A stretch of 64,000 nucleotides of DNA from an uncultured Clostridia bacterium (GTDB lineage: Bacteria > Bacillota > Clostridia > Oscillospirales > Acutalibacteraceae), in contig CANPWP010000001.1 of NCBI GenBank assembly GCA_947584595.1, forward strand, positions 1 to 64,000, given 5' to 3'. A model generated the notes under the pieces. That model was not told the DNA's origin. It searched no databases and saw only the letters and a program-made list of their open reading frames with translations. The position numbers and the translations under genes are program-made. Each line of letters opens with the position of its first letter. Within the stretch, counting starts at the first letter, position 1. Of the stretch, positions 4,278 to 64,000 are shown one piece after another.

Positions 4278-4979
4278 ATGAAAAAAATACTTGTTTGTGA
4301 AGATGAAGCCGCTATCCGTGATTTTGTGGTTATAAATTTGCAAAGAGCGGGATATGAGGTAGTAGAAGCCGACTGCGGAGAAACTGCTTTAAAAAAATAT
4401 GATGAATGCGACGGAGATTTTGATGTTGCGATTCTCGATGTTATGATGCCCGGAATAGACGGCTTTCAGGTTTGCAAAGAATTAAGAAACCGCAACGGCG
4501 GAATAGGCATTATTATGCTTTCTGCAAAAACTCAGGAAATGGATAAAGTAACAGGTCTTATGCTGGGAGCAGACGACTATGTTGCAAAACCGTTTTCGCC
4601 AAGCGAACTTCTTGCAAGAGTAGATTCTCTTTACAGAAGGGTTTCGCTTGCACAGTCACACTCTGAAAGCAACTTTAAAGAGGAGCTTAAATCAGGGGAG
4701 TTTACTTTAAATTTAAGAAACCGTACTTTGCTTAAAAACGAAAAGGTTATTGAGCTTACTCAGGTTGAGTTCCAAATTATGGAGTATTTTTTCTCAAATC
4801 CCGGCGTTGCCCTTGACAGAACAGACATCTTGAGCCATGTTTGGGGAGACGCTTACGTTGGAGAAGAAAAAATTGTTGATGTAAATATAAGAAGATTAAG
4901 AATGAAGGTTGAAGACGAACCTTCCAATCCGAAATATATTATTACGGTTTGGGGATTGGGCTATAAATGGGACGCTTAA
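4278..4979 (+). CDS. Response regulator, OmpR/PhoB family
   Basis: Receiver domain (VCEDE..AILDVMMPG..GADDYVAKPF) plus winged-helix C-terminus (VDVNIRRLRMKVE). Confidence 0.92.
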   Translation: MKKILVCEDEAAIRDFVVINLQRAGYEVVEADCGETALKKYDECDGDFDVAILDVMMPGIDGFQVCKELRNRNGGIGIIMLSAKTQEMDKVTGLMLGADDYVAKPFSPSELLARVDSLYRRVSLAQSHSESNFKEELKSGEFTLNLRNRTLLKNEKVIELTQVEFQIMEYFFSNPGVALDRTDILSHVWGDAYVGEEKIVDVNIRRLRMKVEDEPSNPKYIITVWGLGYKWDA

Positions 4980-5021: not shown

Positions 5022-6503
5022 TTGTTTCGTGACTTTTCAAAAGGTATTACAAAACGTTGGATGCTTAACAATTTAAGTGTTATTTTAACAATAGTAATAC
5101 TGATTGTAGTAAGCCTTATTTTTGCCGTTTCTTATATTTATAACAACAGCGTTCAGCAGGTTTTATCATCCGCTTGCAACGAACTTTCTGCGGTATTTCC
5201 GAACTATCAGACGGATAATTCAAACACATTTATTTCCACATCTCGCAATTATGTAGAAAATTTTAACTACAAAGAGAAAATGGAAGTTATGGTACTAAAC
5301 TCAACAGGCAGGGTTATGATGACCTCAACAGGCTTTAACCCTGACGAAAATCAGGAAATGCCTGATTTTGAGCTTGCAAATACAAGTCAGGACGGTATGG
5401 GAAATTACAGCGGAAACTTAAATTCGGGAGAAAGCGTTTCTGCCCAAACGCATATTATAACAAATCAGAATGGGACTTGTGTAGGTGCTATAAGGTATGT
5501 TTCTTCAACGGAAATTGTAAACAGTACTGTCCTCACTATATCGATAATCATTATATTATCGGGACTTCTGATTATTATACTTGTTGTAATTTCAGGCAGT
5601 TACTTTATCCGTTCTATTGTAAGACCCGTTCGGGATTTATCCGATACTGCAAAAAAAATTGCACAGGGCGATTTTTCCGTTACAATAAATAAAAAATATG
5701 ATGACGAAATCGGCGAGCTTTGTGATGCTGTAAAGGATATGTCTAAGGATTTACAAACAGCAGACCAAATGAAAAACGATTTTATATCCCGAGTATCTCA
5801 TGAGCTGAGGACTCCCCTGACCGCTATTAAGGGCTGGGCGGAAACAATGCAGCTTAACGATGAGGGTAAAATTGAAAGAAGCACCTTTGAAAAAGGTATG
5901 AATGTCATTATTAAAGAGTCCTCAAGACTGACAAGCATTGTTGAAGAACTTCTTGATTTCAGCCGTCTGCAAAGCGGCAGAATGGTTCTTATGTGTGAAA
6001 AGCTTGACATTCTTGCAGAGCTTGACGAAACAGTATATATGCTTAAAGAAAGAGCCTTGTCAGAAAGCAAGCACCTTCTTTATGATGAGCCTGAAACAGT
6101 ATTTCCCCCTGTTTACGGCGACAGAAACAGATTAAAACAAGTCTTTTTAAATATAATAGACAACGCTTTAAAATACACCCCTGAAGGAGGAGTTGTTGCA
6201 ATTCAGGTTATTTATGATGAAGATAAGGAACCTGACATAATTAAGATTGTAGTAACAGATACAGGCTGCGGAATTGCTCCTGAGGATTTACCTAAAGTAA
6301 AGGAAAAGTTTTACAAAGCAAATCAAAAGGTAAGCGGTTCAGGTATAGGACTTGCAGTTGCCGATGAAATTATGACGCTGCATCATGGTTCTCTCGATAT
6401 AGAAAGCGGAGAGGGCGTCGGAACAACAGTAACCCTTACCTTCCCCATTTATAAAGAAGGACAACAGCCCGACATTCCACAGCAGGAAATTATTAAAATT
6501 TAG
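5022..6503 (+). CDS. Sensor histidine kinase with HAMP domain
   Basis: TM segments, HAMP, H-box FISRVSHELRTPLTAIKGW, N/G boxes; pairs with upstream response regulator. Confidence 0.92.
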   Translation: MFRDFSKGITKRWMLNNLSVILTIVILIVVSLIFAVSYIYNNSVQQVLSSACNELSAVFPNYQTDNSNTFISTSRNYVENFNYKEKMEVMVLNSTGRVMMTSTGFNPDENQEMPDFELANTSQDGMGNYSGNLNSGESVSAQTHIITNQNGTCVGAIRYVSSTEIVNSTVLTISIIIILSGLLIIILVVISGSYFIRSIVRPVRDLSDTAKKIAQGDFSVTINKKYDDEIGELCDAVKDMSKDLQTADQMKNDFISRVSHELRTPLTAIKGWAETMQLNDEGKIERSTFEKGMNVIIKESSRLTSIVEELLDFSRLQSGRMVLMCEKLDILAELDETVYMLKERALSESKHLLYDEPETVFPPVYGDRNRLKQVFLNIIDNALKYTPEGGVVAIQVIYDEDKEPDIIKIVVTDTGCGIAPEDLPKVKEKFYKANQKVSGSGIGLAVADEIMTLHHGSLDIESGEGVGTTVTLTFPIYKEGQQPDIPQQEIIKI

Positions 6504-54795: not shown

Positions 54796-56667
54796 TTAAG
54801 TGTTAGTTTTATGATTAAATGTCGGAACTATTTTTGATAAAAATTCAACAGTTCCATCACTGTCATTTTCTTCTGCATATTTCTTAAGCTTTTCTAAATT
54901 ATTTAAAAGTTCTTCCGGATTTATTTCAATCTGCTTACCTATAAAGATTTTTTTATTTGCAGTAGATTTCAATCCTTCTTCATTCATAAGAAGTTCTTCA
55001 AATAGTTTTTCGCCCGGTCTCAGACCTGTAAATTTAATTTCAACATCTTTATACGGAATTTTGCCGTACATACGAATCAAATTTTCTGCCAATGTAAGTA
55101 TTTTTACAGGCTCTCCCATATCAAGAACAAAAATTTCACCGCCTTTTGCAATTGCCCCCGCTTCAAGAACAAGAGATACTGCTTCAGGTATAGTCATAAA
55201 ATATCTTATAATATCAGGGTGTGTTACAGTTACCTGATTTGTGGTTTCAATTTGTCTTTTAAAAAGCGGAATCACGCTTCCGTTTGAACCTAATACATTT
55301 CCAAAACGGGTTGCTACAAATTCTGTCTTGCTGCTGTTTTGGGCCTTATACTGAATTATCATTTCACAACATCTTTTGGTAGCTCCCATAACATTTGTAG
55401 GATTTACCGCTTTATCTGTTGAAATAAGTACAAATTTGTCTGCACCATATTTTTCTGCAAGATTGGCAACATTGAACGTTCCAAAAATATTGTTTTTAAC
55501 AGCCTCCTCAGGTACGGACTCCATCAAGGGTACATGCTTATGAGCGGCCGCATGAAAAACAAGATTAGGCTTATACTCAGCAAAAATTTTATCCATTTTA
55601 TCATAATCTCTTACAGAAGAAATTAACGTAACAAGATTAAGATCATTTCCGTATTTAATAACTAACTCTTGTTGTATATCATATGCGTTATTTTCATAAA
55701 TATCTACTATAATTATTTGCTTGGGATCATACTTTGCTATTTGTCGTACAAGCTCACTTCCGATTGAGCCCCCGCCTCCGGTTACTAAACAAACCTTATC
55801 CTTAATAAGTGTTTTAATAACAAACTTATCAAATTCAATAGGCTTTCTTCCAAGCAAATCCTCTATTTTTATTTCCTTAGCCTGTGTAATGAGCTGTGTG
55901 TGCTTTTCATCAAATAAAAGCTCGCTTAAATAAGGAATTATCTTTATTTTACATTCAGTATTTGAACAATGATTGAGGATTCTGCGCTTGTCCTCCTCTT
56001 CGCAGGAAGGAACGGCAACAATTATTGTATCTATGTTAAAATCTCTGCAAACCCGCTCTATATCAGCACTTGTTCCTACAACCGGAACTCCGCTGAGCTT
56101 GCTGTTTTGCTTAGACAAATCGTCATCAATAAAACATATCGGCAAAATATTTTTTGTAGGACTGTTTTCATCAAAACGTGAATTTTTGATTTCAGTCAAG
56201 ATCATTTTTCCGGCATTTCCTGCACCTACAATTAAGGTCCTGTCGGCTACTTGTGATCTGCCTGCATAGGTAAGATCAAGGAATGCTCTTTTAAAAACAA
56301 ACCTAAAAAGTAAAACTCCTGTTGTAGATATTAAAAAATAGATTAGAGTAAATACAAAATTTTGGCCTATCGGCAAAATTAACGACGCACAATATCCCAG
56401 TGCAAAACCTATAATCATTGCAATACCGCAATAAAAATAATCGTTGACATTAAAATACCGCCACAATCTTGAATATGCACCAAATACAAAAAGCATAAGA
56501 ATACATAAAATCAGGTCAATTACAATGTCATATAATAATCTTCGGCTGGCGGAAGCAAATGGAGAATTAAAAAGCGACAATATATAATTTGTAATAATAC
56601 CGCTGACTATAATAATAAAGATATCAGAAAGCGCAAGAACAATCTTGCGTAATTTTATAATTTTCAT
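54796..56667 (-). CDS. Membrane nucleoside-diphosphate sugar epimerase/dehydratase (CapD/WbpM-like)
   Basis: Four N-terminal TM helices, VTGGGGSIGSELVRQI, HKHVPLMESVPEEAVKNN. Confidence 0.92.
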   Translation of the reverse strand: MKIIKLRKIVLALSDIFIIIVSGIITNYILSLFNSPFASASRRLLYDIVIDLILCILMLFVFGAYSRLWRYFNVNDYFYCGIAMIIGFALGYCASLILPIGQNFVFTLIYFLISTTGVLLFRFVFKRAFLDLTYAGRSQVADRTLIVGAGNAGKMILTEIKNSRFDENSPTKNILPICFIDDDLSKQNSKLSGVPVVGTSADIERVCRDFNIDTIIVAVPSCEEEDKRRILNHCSNTECKIKIIPYLSELLFDEKHTQLITQAKEIKIEDLLGRKPIEFDKFVIKTLIKDKVCLVTGGGGSIGSELVRQIAKYDPKQIIIVDIYENNAYDIQQELVIKYGNDLNLVTLISSVRDYDKMDKIFAEYKPNLVFHAAAHKHVPLMESVPEEAVKNNIFGTFNVANLAEKYGADKFVLISTDKAVNPTNVMGATKRCCEMIIQYKAQNSSKTEFVATRFGNVLGSNGSVIPLFKRQIETTNQVTVTHPDIIRYFMTIPEAVSLVLEAGAIAKGGEIFVLDMGEPVKILTLAENLIRMYGKIPYKDVEIKFTGLRPGEKLFEELLMNEEGLKSTANKKIFIGKQIEINPEELLNNLEKLKKYAEENDSDGTVEFLSKIVPTFNHKTNT

Positions 56668-57153: not shown

Positions 57154-58267
57154 TTACTTAAAATATCCTTTATATGATAACCGTCGTTCTTTACTAAAAA
57201 ACAGATTAGAAAACGGAATGTATATTAAATTAATTAAAAATGATGTTCCTAAAGACAGTATAACGAGCCATACATAAACAGCTGTCGATATGTATGGTAA
57301 AAATACTATCGGCTGCCAAAAATAATAACACCAAAATGTATGTGTCAACCACATATTGGTTGAATGTTTTCCCATTAATATAAAAAATTTTGATATTGAT
57401 GTATTGTATAGTAGTGTAGTAATTGAAAACACAAATATCGGTACAACAATAAAATCTGCCCTCATTGTAGTTGCACTATTTTGAAAAACAATTCTTAAAA
57501 TTACGGAAATAATTATTGCAATAATTGAAACAAGTTTAATATTAATTTTATCATTAAAAAAGTTTATTAATTTCCCATATACATTATATTTTGCACAAAC
57601 CATCCCTATAAAAAAGACAGATAATATTTCAATATTTCTTAAATACCAAAAATAACTATCCAAAAAAATATTACTTCCTAAAAATTTAATTATAATTCTT
57701 CCTGTTAGGTATATAACAAAATAAATAAGTAATACAATAAATTTTTTATATATTTTATGTTTTGATAACAAATAATTGAAAAACGGAAAGATAAGCAACA
57801 AAACTAAATAACACCTTACAAACCACCACTCCGTATTGTAAGTTGCTGTATTCATTCCAAAAAATGCTGCTATAATGTTACCTATATTAAATTCGTATAC
57901 ACCCATTAAAACACCAATTGGAATAAATATTAAAAAGATGATCCAAAAATTTGTTAAAAAGTGCAGTGCTCTAAAAAGCATACTTTTATACTGAGAAACA
58001 ATATTACTTTGATTTTTTAAATTGGAATAATATAATCCTATACCGCTTACAAATACAAAAATACAAACACAAATTTTCCCAAACTTAGCAAATATTGTTT
58101 GTGCGTCTACCCCCCCCCCCTAACAAAAATACGTTTAATACGGAAAGATATTGACAATGTATACGTTCCGCAAATAGAAATAAATGATGATAAATCATTA
58201 AAAGTATAGCAATACCCTTTGCAATTTGGGTATGTTTAATACTAAAGTTATCCATATATAACCCCAT
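57154..58267 (-). pseudogene. Acyltransferase 3 family membrane protein interrupted at an 11-G tract (putative phase-OFF allele)
   Basis: N-terminal ORF 58085-58267 runs out of frame through poly-G; the other frame is open from the tract to 57154 (VDAQTIFAKFGKICVCIFVFVSGIGLYYSNLKNQSNIVSQYKSMLFRALHF..). Confidence 0.85.
58110..58120 (+). repeat. Homopolymeric C11 tract (G11 on coding strand)
   Basis: gtcta-ccccccccccc-taac; by far the longest G/C homopolymer I saw in this AT-rich window. Confidence 0.97.
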
Positions 58268-58276
58268 TTAATAAAA

Positions 58277-59824
58277 CTAATTTTTTAACTTATTTAAAAC
58301 ATTATTTATGATCCTTATTGCTGTTGCCTTCAAGTAAGCAAATTCCTTTGTTTTACGAAAAGCAAGTAAAAATATTCCATTAGATACAACTGTACAAATA
58401 ACGATTTTCAATATTAAATCAACAAATAAATTTATATTAACTAATGAGCATAAAAACCAACATGTTATACCGCTTACTAAAAGAATCACTAAATACCATA
58501 AGTACTTTTTCAAATAAATTAAAGCACTTTTTTCAAAGCCGAACTTAAATAACGCAAAAGGTTCATACCAAGTATTAGTAACAAGCCTTGCTATTGCGGT
58601 AGCCAAAAAAATTCCAAACACTCCTAAATAATACCCTAAAATTATATCTCCCACTACATTAATAGCGGCTGTTACAAATAATATATATCGTCCGTATTTA
58701 AACATACCCATAGTATTCTTAAACGTCCATACAGCATTTTGCATACCTACCATATACAAATTTACAGCAAGTATTAATGGTATTTCCCAAGACATAACAT
58801 ATTTTCCGCCAAAACATAAATCCACAATGTTAGAGGTTACACAAGTTACTCCAATAGCTGCAAACCCATAAAGCCAGAAATTAGTTAAATTAAGAATCTT
58901 AAAAAAATTATACTGTTTATCTTTACTTTCTACTGCATTTAAATTTCCTACGCTTGCTGTCAATGCATTGAATACATTTTTTATCAAAGTATCAAGCATA
59001 TTAATTAATAATGTATAATTTGAAGCTAAACCGGTAATTCCTAAACCGCTAAAGTATGTAATAACTAAATTATCAGTATTATTAACAAGGATTCCGCTCA
59101 CCTTATATGCAGTAATATCTTTAACATTTTTAAATAATTTTCTTTTTTCCTCTTTCGGTAAAGGCATAATATTTTTCTTATCTATAAAAGGATAATCTTT
59201 TTTAGCCCATAAAGTAATTATAATGTTATATATCCAAGTACATATTGTCTGAACTATTAAATAAGGCAGATATGATCTTAAAGCTAACAATAAAACTATT
59301 TGTACAATACTCTGCAATACAGTGCAAACATAACCAACACCAACTACAATATAATTACGTTGAAAAGCTGTAATTAAAGAACTTCTATAACTAAAGAAAT
59401 AACTGCTTGCAGTGTTAAATAAAAAAATACCATAGATTAAATATATGCTTTCATTAATATCATGTGTATCACCAACTACGAAAGTTAGACATGGTATTAA
59501 TACAATACCTAATACAGCAACAATCATACCGATTAATCTGTAAGCATATTTAAACAAATGCATTAAAGAAGCAATTTTTTCTTCGTCATTTTCTGCAATA
59601 GGTTTATATAATGAAAATATTATTGCACTTCCAATTCCTAATTCCGCTAAAGATAACATACTTAGGAAATTTGTAAGTAATCCTGTTATACCTAAGTACT
59701 CCTCGGATAAAACTCTTACAAATACCATTCTGCATACATAGCCGAACACTGTATTTATAAAATAACCTACAAAACCTGTAAGCATATTTAATAAGGAATA
59801 TTGCGTTCTTGATTTCTTTTCCAT
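58277..59824 (-). CDS. Polysaccharide flippase (Wzx/MATE-like O-antigen transporter)
   Basis: ~12-14 TM helices, EYLGITGLLTNFLSMLSLAELGIGSAI typical of polysaccharide exporters. Confidence 0.88.
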   Translation of the reverse strand: MEKKSRTQYSLLNMLTGFVGYFINTVFGYVCRMVFVRVLSEEYLGITGLLTNFLSMLSLAELGIGSAIIFSLYKPIAENDEEKIASLMHLFKYAYRLIGMIVAVLGIVLIPCLTFVVGDTHDINESIYLIYGIFLFNTASSYFFSYRSSLITAFQRNYIVVGVGYVCTVLQSIVQIVLLLALRSYLPYLIVQTICTWIYNIIITLWAKKDYPFIDKKNIMPLPKEEKRKLFKNVKDITAYKVSGILVNNTDNLVITYFSGLGITGLASNYTLLINMLDTLIKNVFNALTASVGNLNAVESKDKQYNFFKILNLTNFWLYGFAAIGVTCVTSNIVDLCFGGKYVMSWEIPLILAVNLYMVGMQNAVWTFKNTMGMFKYGRYILFVTAAINVVGDIILGYYLGVFGIFLATAIARLVTNTWYEPFALFKFGFEKSALIYLKKYLWYLVILLVSGITCWFLCSLVNINLFVDLILKIVICTVVSNGIFLLAFRKTKEFAYLKATAIRIINNVLNKLKN

Positions 59825-59841: not shown

Positions 59842-60999
59842 TTACTCTAAAACAGCAAATAGTTTGATTGCCATACCTTGAACAAATGGCATACTGCCAT
59901 ATCTTTGTGAAAACACACCAATATCCTTTGTGTCACCGAGACAACCGTCAATAACACCATTTATTTTTGTGTGTTTCATAATTTTTAATAAACAACGATT
60001 TGCTATATCCGTATATTCTTTCACATCAAACTCTTTACCACAAATTGCATAAAAATATCCTAACATAACTGTGGCAGAACTATCATAATGCTCATGATCC
60101 TGTACAATTGTAGAAAACCCACCGTCTTTTCTTTCAAACCGTTTCCAGTTTTCTGCAGCTTCTTTCATATAAGCCGCCAAAGCTTTCTTATTTAAATTAT
60201 CATCCAGTTCCAGATATAAATCAGTTAATCCTAAAGAGTACCAACCCATGCCTCTGCCCCAACCGTATATTCCTAATGGGATTTTTGAATCAGATTGAAA
60301 GCAATGAACCGGAAGATTTTTATAAAAACCTTTTTCTCTGAAAAGTTTAATCTGTTCAATAGCTAAATCAACATATTCAGTTTTATTATAAATTTTACCG
60401 TATAGAGCAAGAAACGGACATACAAACCCTAAAGTATCCACATATCTTCGACGGGCATTTTTACCTGCCGAATAACTTATCATGCCATCATCACATAAAT
60501 TAAATTTAATACATTCTATCATTTGATCCATAGCTTTATGTATTAATTGTTTGTCTTTTTCACATTTTAATAAAACATATGACAGCATTGCAAAATCAAT
60601 TTTTTTTACCGGAAAATTCCAACCGCCACCTTTATCAAGAAATTGTTCTTTTATTTTTTGAAAATCATTGTCAAAACAATTTTCCTGCAATGCTTTCACG
60701 CCTAATATGCACCCCGCCGTTTGCCAACTTTGAACCATAGGTTTAGAGTATTTGCCCCTTAATCTGTCGATCAACAAATAACGGCAATCGTCTCTTAACT
60801 TTAATTTCGGCGTTTTAACACTCCACTTTTTACAAACCTTTAAAACTGCATTTTTCCACTGCTGTTTATTTTCCCATCTTCCAATATGATAGTGACTAAA
60901 ATTTTCATACAAAGCTGAAATTGCATCATATCCCACAAGTATAGTTAAAACAAGTGCAATAACACTTATAATAATTAATACATATAACATTTTATTCAC
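59842..60999 (-). CDS. Membrane-anchored GH88/GH105-like (unsaturated glucuronyl/rhamnogalacturonyl hydrolase-like) protein
   Basis: N-terminal TM; YGWGRGMGWYSLGLTDL, DSSATVMLGYFYAICG, YGSMPFVQGMAIKLFAVLE. Confidence 0.8.
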   Translation of the reverse strand: MNKMLYVLIIISVIALVLTILVGYDAISALYENFSHYHIGRWENKQQWKNAVLKVCKKWSVKTPKLKLRDDCRYLLIDRLRGKYSKPMVQSWQTAGCILGVKALQENCFDNDFQKIKEQFLDKGGGWNFPVKKIDFAMLSYVLLKCEKDKQLIHKAMDQMIECIKFNLCDDGMISYSAGKNARRRYVDTLGFVCPFLALYGKIYNKTEYVDLAIEQIKLFREKGFYKNLPVHCFQSDSKIPLGIYGWGRGMGWYSLGLTDLYLELDDNLNKKALAAYMKEAAENWKRFERKDGGFSTIVQDHEHYDSSATVMLGYFYAICGKEFDVKEYTDIANRCLLKIMKHTKINGVIDGCLGDTKDIGVFSQRYGSMPFVQGMAIKLFAVLE

Positions 61000-62152
61000 C
61001 CATTATTTTTTTTAAAGCGTCAACCGCAAGCTGAGTTTTCTGTTTGTATTCAGGCATAATTTTCTCTAAATAATTTCGTATGCTATCTTCGTTGTTTTCT
61101 ATCCAGCAATAGGCATTAACTAAATCATTTTTATTTTTTAATGATTGAACAGGAACAACATAGTCATTATATCTTCCAAATAAATCTTTTGCAATTCCTT
61201 TTGCTTTAACGGAATATCCTACAACCAATGTTGGAACACAACTTGAATATGCGGCAATAGTTGCATGAGTTCTCGCTCCAACAAAAATTCTGCATTTTGA
61301 AATAATGTATTTTTGTCTTGTACAATCATGATCATCTACCATAACAACTCTATCATTGCAGGCAAACATATTTTTAAGTTCACTAAGTGGTTTTCTGTCG
61401 TCATTACTTTCCCAAACAACATGCGGAATTAATGCAACTGAATCTTTTGTATTTTCTAATATATATTGAATTAAATTTTTATAATTTTCCATTGTAATGC
61501 CAGACACCTGCTCATGAGCAGCAATCATTGGGCTTACATTAACACCAATATATGTTTTTGCCGGTAATTCTGTTTCCTGTTTTGGCAATACAAAAGCAGG
61601 GTCAACTGTCAGTATTGTATTTGAATTTATTTTTTTAAGAGCTTCATAAGTAATAGTTTCTCTGGCACAAATCAAGTCATAACCTTTTAAATCCTCTGCC
61701 ATAGTCTCGTCAATATAGTCAGGTTCAACAGAACAACCCCATAAAACGGTCTTACAGCCTTGATTTCTTAAATATTTGTTAACTCTATAAAGAAAGTTCG
61801 GAGTATCATAACAGTAGATATCTCCACCGATAGACAAAAGAATGCCACTTTTTTTACAATTATTAAATATCGGAGAAAACGTTTTATTGTAATATGCATC
61901 AGATTGATGAAAAAGATATTTTTTAATTAAACAAGAAATATGTTCTAAAGCAAACCTTTTAATTTCATAATTTGCTTTTTGTATTTCAACATCAATATCA
62001 TTGATATACTTTAAATCCTCTTGTGGATTATCTGATAAAAGAATTATATTTTTATTACTTATTAACTTTTTTGTCGACCTGACAATAGCCTCACAACCAT
62101 GGTTGCCACTTCCTATATGTGGGTATAAAACTATGGTTTTCATTTCATGCAC
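60992..62152 (-). CDS. Polysaccharide pyruvyl transferase family protein
   Basis: GNHGCEAIVRST, LLSIGGDIYCYD, GARTHATIAAYSSCVPTLVVGYSVKAKGIA. Confidence 0.88.
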   Translation of the reverse strand: MHEMKTIVLYPHIGSGNHGCEAIVRSTKKLISNKNIILLSDNPQEDLKYINDIDVEIQKANYEIKRFALEHISCLIKKYLFHQSDAYYNKTFSPIFNNCKKSGILLSIGGDIYCYDTPNFLYRVNKYLRNQGCKTVLWGCSVEPDYIDETMAEDLKGYDLICARETITYEALKKINSNTILTVDPAFVLPKQETELPAKTYIGVNVSPMIAAHEQVSGITMENYKNLIQYILENTKDSVALIPHVVWESNDDRKPLSELKNMFACNDRVVMVDDHDCTRQKYIISKCRIFVGARTHATIAAYSSCVPTLVVGYSVKAKGIAKDLFGRYNDYVVPVQSLKNKNDLVNAYCWIENNEDSIRNYLEKIMPEYKQKTQLAVDALKKIMGE

Positions 62153-63194
62153 TCCTAATTTTATAGATGTAATAAATTAAATTATATCTTTTTAACTGTA
62201 ATAGCCTAAAAATAATTCTAACCTTTTTGTTTTTTATATCCTTATAATTAACCTTTTTTAATATAGATGCCATTTTATATTTATCAGTAATTTCTTTTAA
62301 TTCAGTTATAATTGTCTTCCTATCCGCTTTTCGGGTCTTATCAAAAATCATATTAAAAACAACAATTTCTAAAAGTTTTAAAGTTTCCAATAATAATTTA
62401 TCCTCAAAATCTTTTTTTTGTAAATCTTCATGTTTTGAAAAAAACTGATATCTTTCATTTGTAGTTAACAAATAGGATGTTACCAACTTTTTATCATATT
62501 TTTTTAAAACAGTAGTAATATGGTCTGAAGAATAATTGTATAATGGAATATCCACATACCTGACAACATTAGAATAATAAAATAATATTAAATTAAACAA
62601 ATTATCTTCAAGATGATTTATTCTTTCATCAAATTGTATTCCAACTTTATTGATAAATTTTCTTCGATAAATTTTACCCCAAGGTACACCAATACCTGTA
62701 TAAATGTTTTCTTGAGGTTGCCCATATGCGGTATCAAGCAATTGAAAATATAAATCCCTTTTAGATTCATAAGTATTTTTAAAAATCCTGTTACCGTCAA
62801 AAAAGTGATCAACAACAACCAGATCCTCAATATTAACATTACAACAGCAACAAACTATGTCTGTTTCCGGAGTAAGTTTTTCAAACAAATATTCAACAGC
62901 ATTTTGCTCCAGCCAGTCGTCTGAATCTACAAACATAACATACTCGCCTTTAGACTCTTTAAGTCCATAATTACGGGCAACAGATACTCCTTTATTATCC
63001 TGATGATAAACTATAATATTTTCGTTTGAAACACTCAAGTCCTTACATTTTTTTAAACTATTATCTGTAGAACCATCATCAACAATTATGATTTCTATAT
63101 TTGAATAGGTTTGAGCAATAATACTATTTATACATCTTTTTATTGTTTTTTCTCTATTATATACCGGAACAATAACAGAAATTAACGGTAACAT
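62145..63194 (-). CDS. Glycosyltransferase family 2
   Basis: SVIVPVYNREKTIKRCINSI, IIVDDGSTDNS, FVDSDDWLE. Confidence 0.93.
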   Translation of the reverse strand: MLPLISVIVPVYNREKTIKRCINSIIAQTYSNIEIIIVDDGSTDNSLKKCKDLSVSNENIIVYHQDNKGVSVARNYGLKESKGEYVMFVDSDDWLEQNAVEYLFEKLTPETDIVCCCCNVNIEDLVVVDHFFDGNRIFKNTYESKRDLYFQLLDTAYGQPQENIYTGIGVPWGKIYRRKFINKVGIQFDERINHLEDNLFNLILFYYSNVVRYVDIPLYNYSSDHITTVLKKYDKKLVTSYLLTTNERYQFFSKHEDLQKKDFEDKLLLETLKLLEIVVFNMIFDKTRKADRKTIITELKEITDKYKMASILKKVNYKDIKNKKVRIIFRLLQLKRYNLIYYIYKIRSA

Positions 63195-63198
63195 AATA

Positions 63199-64000
63199 TT
63201 AAGCCTCTCTGAGTTCTGTACGTTTTTTTTGCTGTTTAATAATAAATGAATAACCTAAATAATTTGTCTTGCGTAAAATCATAAGCGGCAAATATCTAAT
63301 TCCTTTATAAATTTCAGGAAATTGCTTTTTTAGCCACAAATCATATTCTATAAACTCTTGTTTTAAAGAATTTTTATCTTCCATTAAAACAAGCATTTCA
63401 AAGTAATAATAACTTAATGCACGCAGTCTTTCATAATATATTTTTTGTAATTGCAAATTTTTTGTTTCGTTCTTTGTTAAACATAAAAGTGTCCGTAATA
63501 CATATTCAAACTCCTTATAATGTTTCTTCATTCCTTCAACACTAACACTTTGACCCGGACGTGATAAACGATAACAATAAATACTATATGGCATTATTGT
63601 AACACTTTTACAACAATTACAACTCCTAAATACATATTCATTATCTGTATAAAAGCAATGCTCTGTTATCGAAATATTATTTTCCTTTAACAAAGCTGTT
63701 TTAAATGTTAACGCATACATTTCAATGCTATAAGGCTGTACAGGTATTTCATCAATCGTACTATTTTTCACTCTGTCTGTTTTGTAATAAGGATTATCTA
63801 TAATAACCACTTTATTGGTAACATCATAAAATTTTGTAAAAGCAGTAACTACCATATCAGATTCACATTTTTCCAGTTCATCTAAAAACGCTGTTAAATC
63901 CTTTTTATTGTAATAATCATCACCATCAAGTTGTTTAAAATATTTTCCTGTAGCATTTCGTATTCCGGACGTAACAGTAGAACCCCAACCACCGTTTTTT
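63199..64000 (-). CDS. Glycosyltransferase family 2, truncated by the window end
   Basis: Frame stays open upstream of the ORF-track Met: KNGGWGSTVTSGIRNATGKYFKQLDGDDYYNKKDLTAFLDELEKCESD.. Confidence 0.85.
   Translation of the reverse strand, partial: KNGGWGSTVTSGIRNATGKYFKQLDGDDYYNKKDLTAFLDELEKCESDMVVTAFTKFYDVTNKVVIIDNPYYKTDRVKNSTIDEIPVQPYSIEMYALTFKTALLKENNISITEHCFYTDNEYVFRSCNCCKSVTIMPYSIYCYRLSRPGQSVSVEGMKKHYKEFEYVLRTLLCLTKNETKNLQLQKIYYERLRALSYYYFEMLVLMEDKNSLKQEFIEYDLWLKKQFPEIYKGIRYLPLMILRKTNYLGYSFIIKQQKKRTELREA

Follow-up and report, generated by a model that had tools for sequence, protein, structure and literature searches.

An uninterrupted run of eleven guanines inside an acyltransferase gene raises the question of whether this gene is turned on and off by changes in the length of the run. 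The gene lies near the end of the window, a term used here for the whole stretch of 64,000 nucleotides that was analyzed, taken from contig CANPWP010000001.1 of an uncultured Clostridia bacterium. A recount of the 11 consecutive cytosines that an earlier note had placed at positions 58110-58120 of the plus strand gave the same length and position; they correspond to G11 on the minus strand, on which the gene is encoded. We consider it very likely that the G11 tract is a slipped-strand mispairing switch between a full-length acyltransferase and a 56-aa stub. The tract, the two parts of the gene and the neighboring genes are as follows.

58110..58120, minus strand: G11 tract (C11 on the plus strand), the candidate switch element
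58085..58255, minus strand: 5' part of the acyltransferase in the OFF frame, a 56-aa stub including the first helix; stop at 58087-58085, start set by alignment with the ortholog L013
57154..58110, minus strand: remaining 3' part of the acyltransferase, read in the other frame (318 codons and a stop) and matching PF01757 Acyl_transf_3; dN/dS against orthologs is about 0.16
58277..59824, minus strand: flippase-like membrane protein directly upstream; weak NCBIfam WZX_like match only
59842..60999, minus strand: glycosyl hydrolase 88-like protein (PF07470)
60992..62152, minus strand: polysaccharide pyruvyl transferase (PF04230)
62145..63194, minus strand: GT2 glycosyltransferase (Pfam match)
63199..64000, minus strand: intact GT2-like gene (334 aa) that extends past the window edge; its C-terminal part corresponds to the 218-aa ORF ending at 63855
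54796..56667, minus strand: PglF/CapD-like nucleotide-sugar dehydratase downstream (profile match), with a consensus promoter at 56783-56755

Translation of the G11 frame from the ATG at 58255 gives MDNFSIKHTQ...NVFLLGGGGRRTNNIC-stop, a product of 56 aa, and the 3' remainder is open from the GTA at 58110 through 318 codons (57157-58110) to the stop at 57154. The two frames and the split ORF described previously were thus reproduced. Stub and remainder are joined at 7, 10 or 13 Gs only, and the G10 product has 366 aa; the single ORF of about 370 aa that had been expected at 10 or 13 Gs is therefore correct, with 7 Gs as a further joining length. In contrast, the start previously set at the ATG at 58267 was moved to the ATG at 58255, which fits the relatives; both ATGs are in frame. 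The tract is therefore an intragenic homopolymer, longer than expected by chance, whose length decides between a full ORF and an early stop.

The proposed acyltransferase 3 (AT3) identity is borne out by the 3' part alone, which matches PF01757 with E 3e-14 and 53.3 bits (gathering score 31) over profile positions 43-325 of 326. A helix-1 motif of AT3 proteins, R-X10-H, is described as absolutely conserved (PMC9833829). Here the His is retained and the Arg is replaced by Lys, giving K-X10-H (AKGIAILLMIYHH), and this Lys is common to relatives with and without the tract. Given this substitution, we claim PF01757 membership rather than catalysis, and the protein is a presumed enzyme. Judged by hydropathy, the few glycines that the tract encodes fall in the stretch linking predicted helices 1 and 2 of the membrane protein, where additional glycines should be tolerated. 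A structure model of an intact ortholog, built from a four-row alignment, also has the tract between two helices, although at a mean pLDDT of 44 it offers a hint only.

The acyltransferase adjoins flippase, pyruvyl transferase and GT2 genes, as had been proposed, and its assignment to a surface-polysaccharide locus is upheld, the flippase being recognized by a weak match. A gap of 22 bp separates the flippase-like gene from the acyltransferase start. On the minus strand, the locus spans from an initiating sugar transferase near G000:C1:78,300 of this genome down to the PglF/CapD-like gene at 54796, and it also encodes an EpsG-like polymerase, GT2, GT4 and Branch glycosyltransferases and a LicD-like protein (annotation by Pfam and NCBIfam matches, with the remainder read from translations). 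From the neighboring flippase, glycosyltransferases and pyruvyl transferase we infer acyl transfer onto a surface glycan. The PglF-like gene has its own consensus promoter, and for this reason the acyltransferase frameshift is probably not polar on it. The GT2-like gene at 63199 was considered as another split gene and rejected, since it is intact past the window edge. A plasmid DNA search with the acyltransferase gene of the window gave no match.

No other G/C run in the 64-kb window exceeds 6, the runner-up being a single G6, and the tract is the longer of two G/C runs of at least 7 found by pattern searches of the whole assembly (1,674,061 bp in 33 contigs). Under a first-order Markov model trained on the window and scaled to the genome, the expected numbers per genome are about 27 runs of at least 7, 1.1 runs of at least 9 and 0.047 runs of at least 11. 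Long G runs are depleted across this genome (2 seen versus about 27 predicted), and a G11 is very unlikely to occur by chance, in line with what the earlier note had assumed from the AT-rich composition. The second run is a G9 on contig 4 (G000:C4:42195-42203, L080) between the convergent 3' ends of an ammonium-transporter-like gene and a pfkA-like gene, and no obvious switch role was found for this intergenic run. The G11 tract is the sole intragenic tract of the genome, a point that speaks against a switch; other noteworthy simple repeats were found neither in the window nor in the rest of the polysaccharide locus.

The acyltransferase has few orthologs: a search of 161 genomes belonging to the genus gave 7 matches in 6 genomes at E <1e-40, the gene itself included. 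The closest one, L013 from another species (G009; 76% identity), carries an in-frame G9 at the identical codon, within an ORF of 368 aa. The tract is absent from four others, L014 (G143), L015 (G118), L007 (G022) and L085 (G132), which at its site are five residues shorter (for instance, NVF-GVD); this points either to a lineage-specific insertion or to a loss in those four. Homologs without a G tract at this position had been named as evidence against a switch; this does not apply to the closest ortholog, but it does to the four others, and across the gene family the switch is thus not conserved. For the out-of-frame half, dN/dS equals 0.16 against L013 and 0.17 against L014, compared to 0.15 between the intact L013 and L014. 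The off half evolves under the same purifying selection as its intact relatives, and the acyltransferase has had a function throughout most of its past, although a fixed loss of very recent date would hardly show in these ratios. A side observation concerns L015 near position 6480 (G118:C21): here a one-base deletion in a T run, unrelated to poly-G, disrupts the ortholog of the acyltransferase, owing either to gene decay or to an error in the assembly.

Of the 120 genomes surveyed in the genus, 99 contain no run of G9 or longer, and eight, seven and two such runs were found in G009, G022 and G143, respectively. (The reversed-pattern control of this survey is uninformative for a homopolymer.) The runs are intragenic in seven of eight cases in G009, nearly all of them in surface-glycan genes, and in seven of seven cases in G022. 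Clustering in surface loci has P ~3e-6 in G009 and ~2e-9 in G022, values that treat the tracts as independent, which is not fully true. The leftover runs of the survey occur in prophage-like DNA, near contig ends or between short ORFs.

Clear cases of tracts in surface genes number 23 in seven genomes (G009, G022, G143, G137, G100, G047 and the window genome). This set was chosen for long flanking ORFs and includes a few G8 runs. With all frames read, 14 of the genes are ON and 9 are OFF, and the OFF genes retain long open downstream halves; the coding strand carries G in 22 of the 23 tracts. The tract-bearing genes encode seven AT3 proteins (two of which, G009i and G009c, were assigned via similarity to matched relatives), hexapeptide acyltransferases, GT2, GT4, GT14-like (Branch) and fucosyltransferase-like proteins, an epimerase, an AsnB-like protein and one large membrane protein without a Pfam match. 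Within the seven AT3 genes the tracts lie at about residues 45, 46, 80, 80, 123, 205 and 244, and these different positions argue for several gains within one family. Relatives of the GT2, Branch and AT3 genes that have no tract show ordinary codons at the tract sites, with no G runs. Tract length differs among relatives in both states, in comparisons between species only: the AT3 gene has G11 off in the window genome versus G9 on in L013, and a GT2 ortholog pair has G11 in frame in L014 (G143) versus G10 out of frame in L013 (G009). We think it likely that a subgroup of this genus possesses a multi-gene poly-G "phasome", with independent gains in many surface-glycan genes and combinatorial capsule diversity within single strains as in Campylobacter and Neisseria, and that the window gene is one of its switches.

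Two tract-bearing loci have features of their own. L072 (G009:C2) contains tandem AT3 paralogs at 2552 and 3783, each with a G9 at residue 80; their N-terminal halves are near-identical and their middles have diverged, and the paralogs are perhaps kept alike through gene conversion. In L078 (G022:C36), around its positions 4626 and 5139, a hexapeptide acyltransferase gene has a G9 close to its 3' end, and this G9 is followed by a decayed copy of a GT2 stretch, which reads KCIALCKCDDF versus RYIAFCEGDDF in the stretch after the G11 of the next GT2 gene. This copy suggests recombination or duplication at G tracts.

In the proposed mechanism, slipped-strand mispairing of the G11 at the replication fork would add or remove a G, presumably at high frequency and reversibly. 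Lengths of 7, 10 or 13 Gs would give an in-frame AT3, a membrane enzyme of about 366 aa predicted to acylate the capsule-like surface glycan built by the locus, with a presumed acyl donor and substrate. Every other length, including 11, would lead to an early stop, which at G11 falls after 56 aa. On/off slippage of this kind would make the population a mixture of acylated and non-acylated cells, and such a mixture could be relevant to encounters with phages, host lectins, antibodies or competing microbes, any of which might be the selective agent. Comparison with relatives leaves the switch strongly supported but not proven: the evidence comprises a tract of different length, in frame, at the same site in another species (L013), the mix of on and off tracts across surface genes of sister genomes, and purifying selection on the off half. 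The candidate put forward in the earlier note therefore stands as a candidate; length variation within one population is a prediction, and the exact assembled length is provisional.

That exact length is the subject of the alternative that survives best, in which the tract was misassembled and truly has 10 or 13 Gs; the gene would then be ON here and its OFF state an artefact, though phase variation of the gene would still be possible. No feature of an assembly is less reliable than the length of a homopolymer, and a published Bifidobacterium breve reference differed in tract length from the majority of cultured cells (PMC9187656). Each species is represented by one genome with one assembled consensus length, which leaves the OFF state uncertain. 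However, no direct sign of error was seen, and OFF lengths occur at other tracts too, in relatives that were assembled separately, so we regard misassembly as unlikely. The named records of the relatives are rabbit-gut MAGs, with the host read from the isolate name Lapin; the named ortholog MAGs apparently all belong to one rabbit project and have the assembly method in common, but not the tract positions across gene families.

The sole assembled allele is out of frame, as would also be seen in a recently fixed pseudogene created by one poly-G frameshift and never restored. The ortholog in G118, frameshifted by the unrelated T deletion, fits this explanation as well and indicates that the gene may simply be dispensable. 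Nevertheless, all 318 downstream codons are open despite the AT-rich genome, dN/dS is the same as in the comparison of intact orthologs, the same-site tract of another species is in frame, and many surface genes of sister genomes have tracts in both states. Against this background a fixed pseudogene is improbable.

Long homopolymers can cause transcriptional slippage or ribosomal frameshifting. Such recoding on the G run is compatible with the reading frames and would supply every cell with some full-length enzyme, thus setting a dose rather than a heritable on/off state. However, ortholog tracts vary in length and are both in frame and out of frame, variation that a fixed recoding signal would not need, and we find this explanation very improbable. 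A chance homopolymer without function, for which one could cite the G9 between convergent genes as a long run outside genes, is hardly credible in view of the ~0.05 runs of 11 or more expected per genome, the same-site tract in L013 and the concentration of tracts in the surface loci of G009 and G022.

Slipped-strand switching at poly-G tracts, a kind of phase variation familiar chiefly from pathogens, is well known from Campylobacter, Neisseria and Helicobacter. In Streptococcus pneumoniae serotype 15B/15C, slippage in a repeat frameshifts the capsule O-acetyltransferase gene wciZ. As proposed for the window gene, repeat slippage there switches acylation of a Gram-positive capsule; in contrast, the wciZ repeat is TA rather than poly-G, and S. 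pneumoniae is unrelated to the window organism. The sortase-dependent pilus genes of B. breve UCC2003 also contain intragenic G tracts (~11-12) that separate two ORFs and affect a surface function in a Gram-positive gut commensal, and slippage was measured by deep sequencing: for a reference G11, cultures had ~37% G11 and ~60% G12 (PMC9187656). Unlike the window gene, this experimentally shown system involves a pilus protein rather than a glycan enzyme and belongs to high-GC Actinobacteria (PMC9187656). The capsule and lipooligosaccharide contingency genes of Campylobacter jejuni similarly combine several surface-glycan G tracts in one AT-rich genome with frame switching; however, C. jejuni is a Gram-negative pathogen with measured rates, whereas the window's own genome has one intragenic tract only (PMC8437040, PMC8355987). 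The invertible promoters of Clostridioides difficile represent phase variation in gut clostridia as well, but by site-specific DNA inversion, which is the clostridial mechanism described in a phase-variation review (PMC11868660).

The same 2025 review asks whether multi-locus phase variation is truly confined to pathogens or whether this impression reflects database bias (PMC11868660). The gut Clostridia described here, which are uncultured and presumably commensal, bear directly on this question: their genomes contain up to seven intragenic tracts of G9 or longer each, nearly all of which lie in surface-glycan genes. In the open-access literature subset, we found no report of glycan genes switched by poly-G tracts, or of slippage-based phase variation, in this group of Clostridia. 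The kind of switch is already known, and the interest here lies in a poly-G repertoire that extends over several genes in uncultured gut Clostridia. If the proposed switching is real, strain-level glycan typing from assemblies could not be relied on in these bacteria, and their recognition by phages or the immune system may vary inside one host.

Across the class, 141 of 293 genomes have a run of G9 or longer, and several have 10-22. Two genomes of other lineages were looked at for the surface-gene pattern and did not clearly repeat it (the tracts of G304 are located between short ORFs, and the sequence of G394 is rich in GC); we make no claim for a class-wide extension. G304 and G440, both of the same class, have small AT-rich genomes of 1.1-1.2 Mb with 10-15 such tracts. 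Those of G304, up to G14 in length, are possible promoter-spacing switches, and several of those in G440 lie inside long ORFs. Within a prophage-like region of ~52% GC (L051, G026:C20:75500-89500), five tracts of G9 or longer along with G8/C8 runs occur within 9 kb, several of them at DNA-methylase genes, and two other methylase genes of the same genus (G001 and G153) have tracts as well. The prophage-like methylase tracts resemble the poly-G tracts reported in use by Campylobacter phages (cited in PMC11868660).
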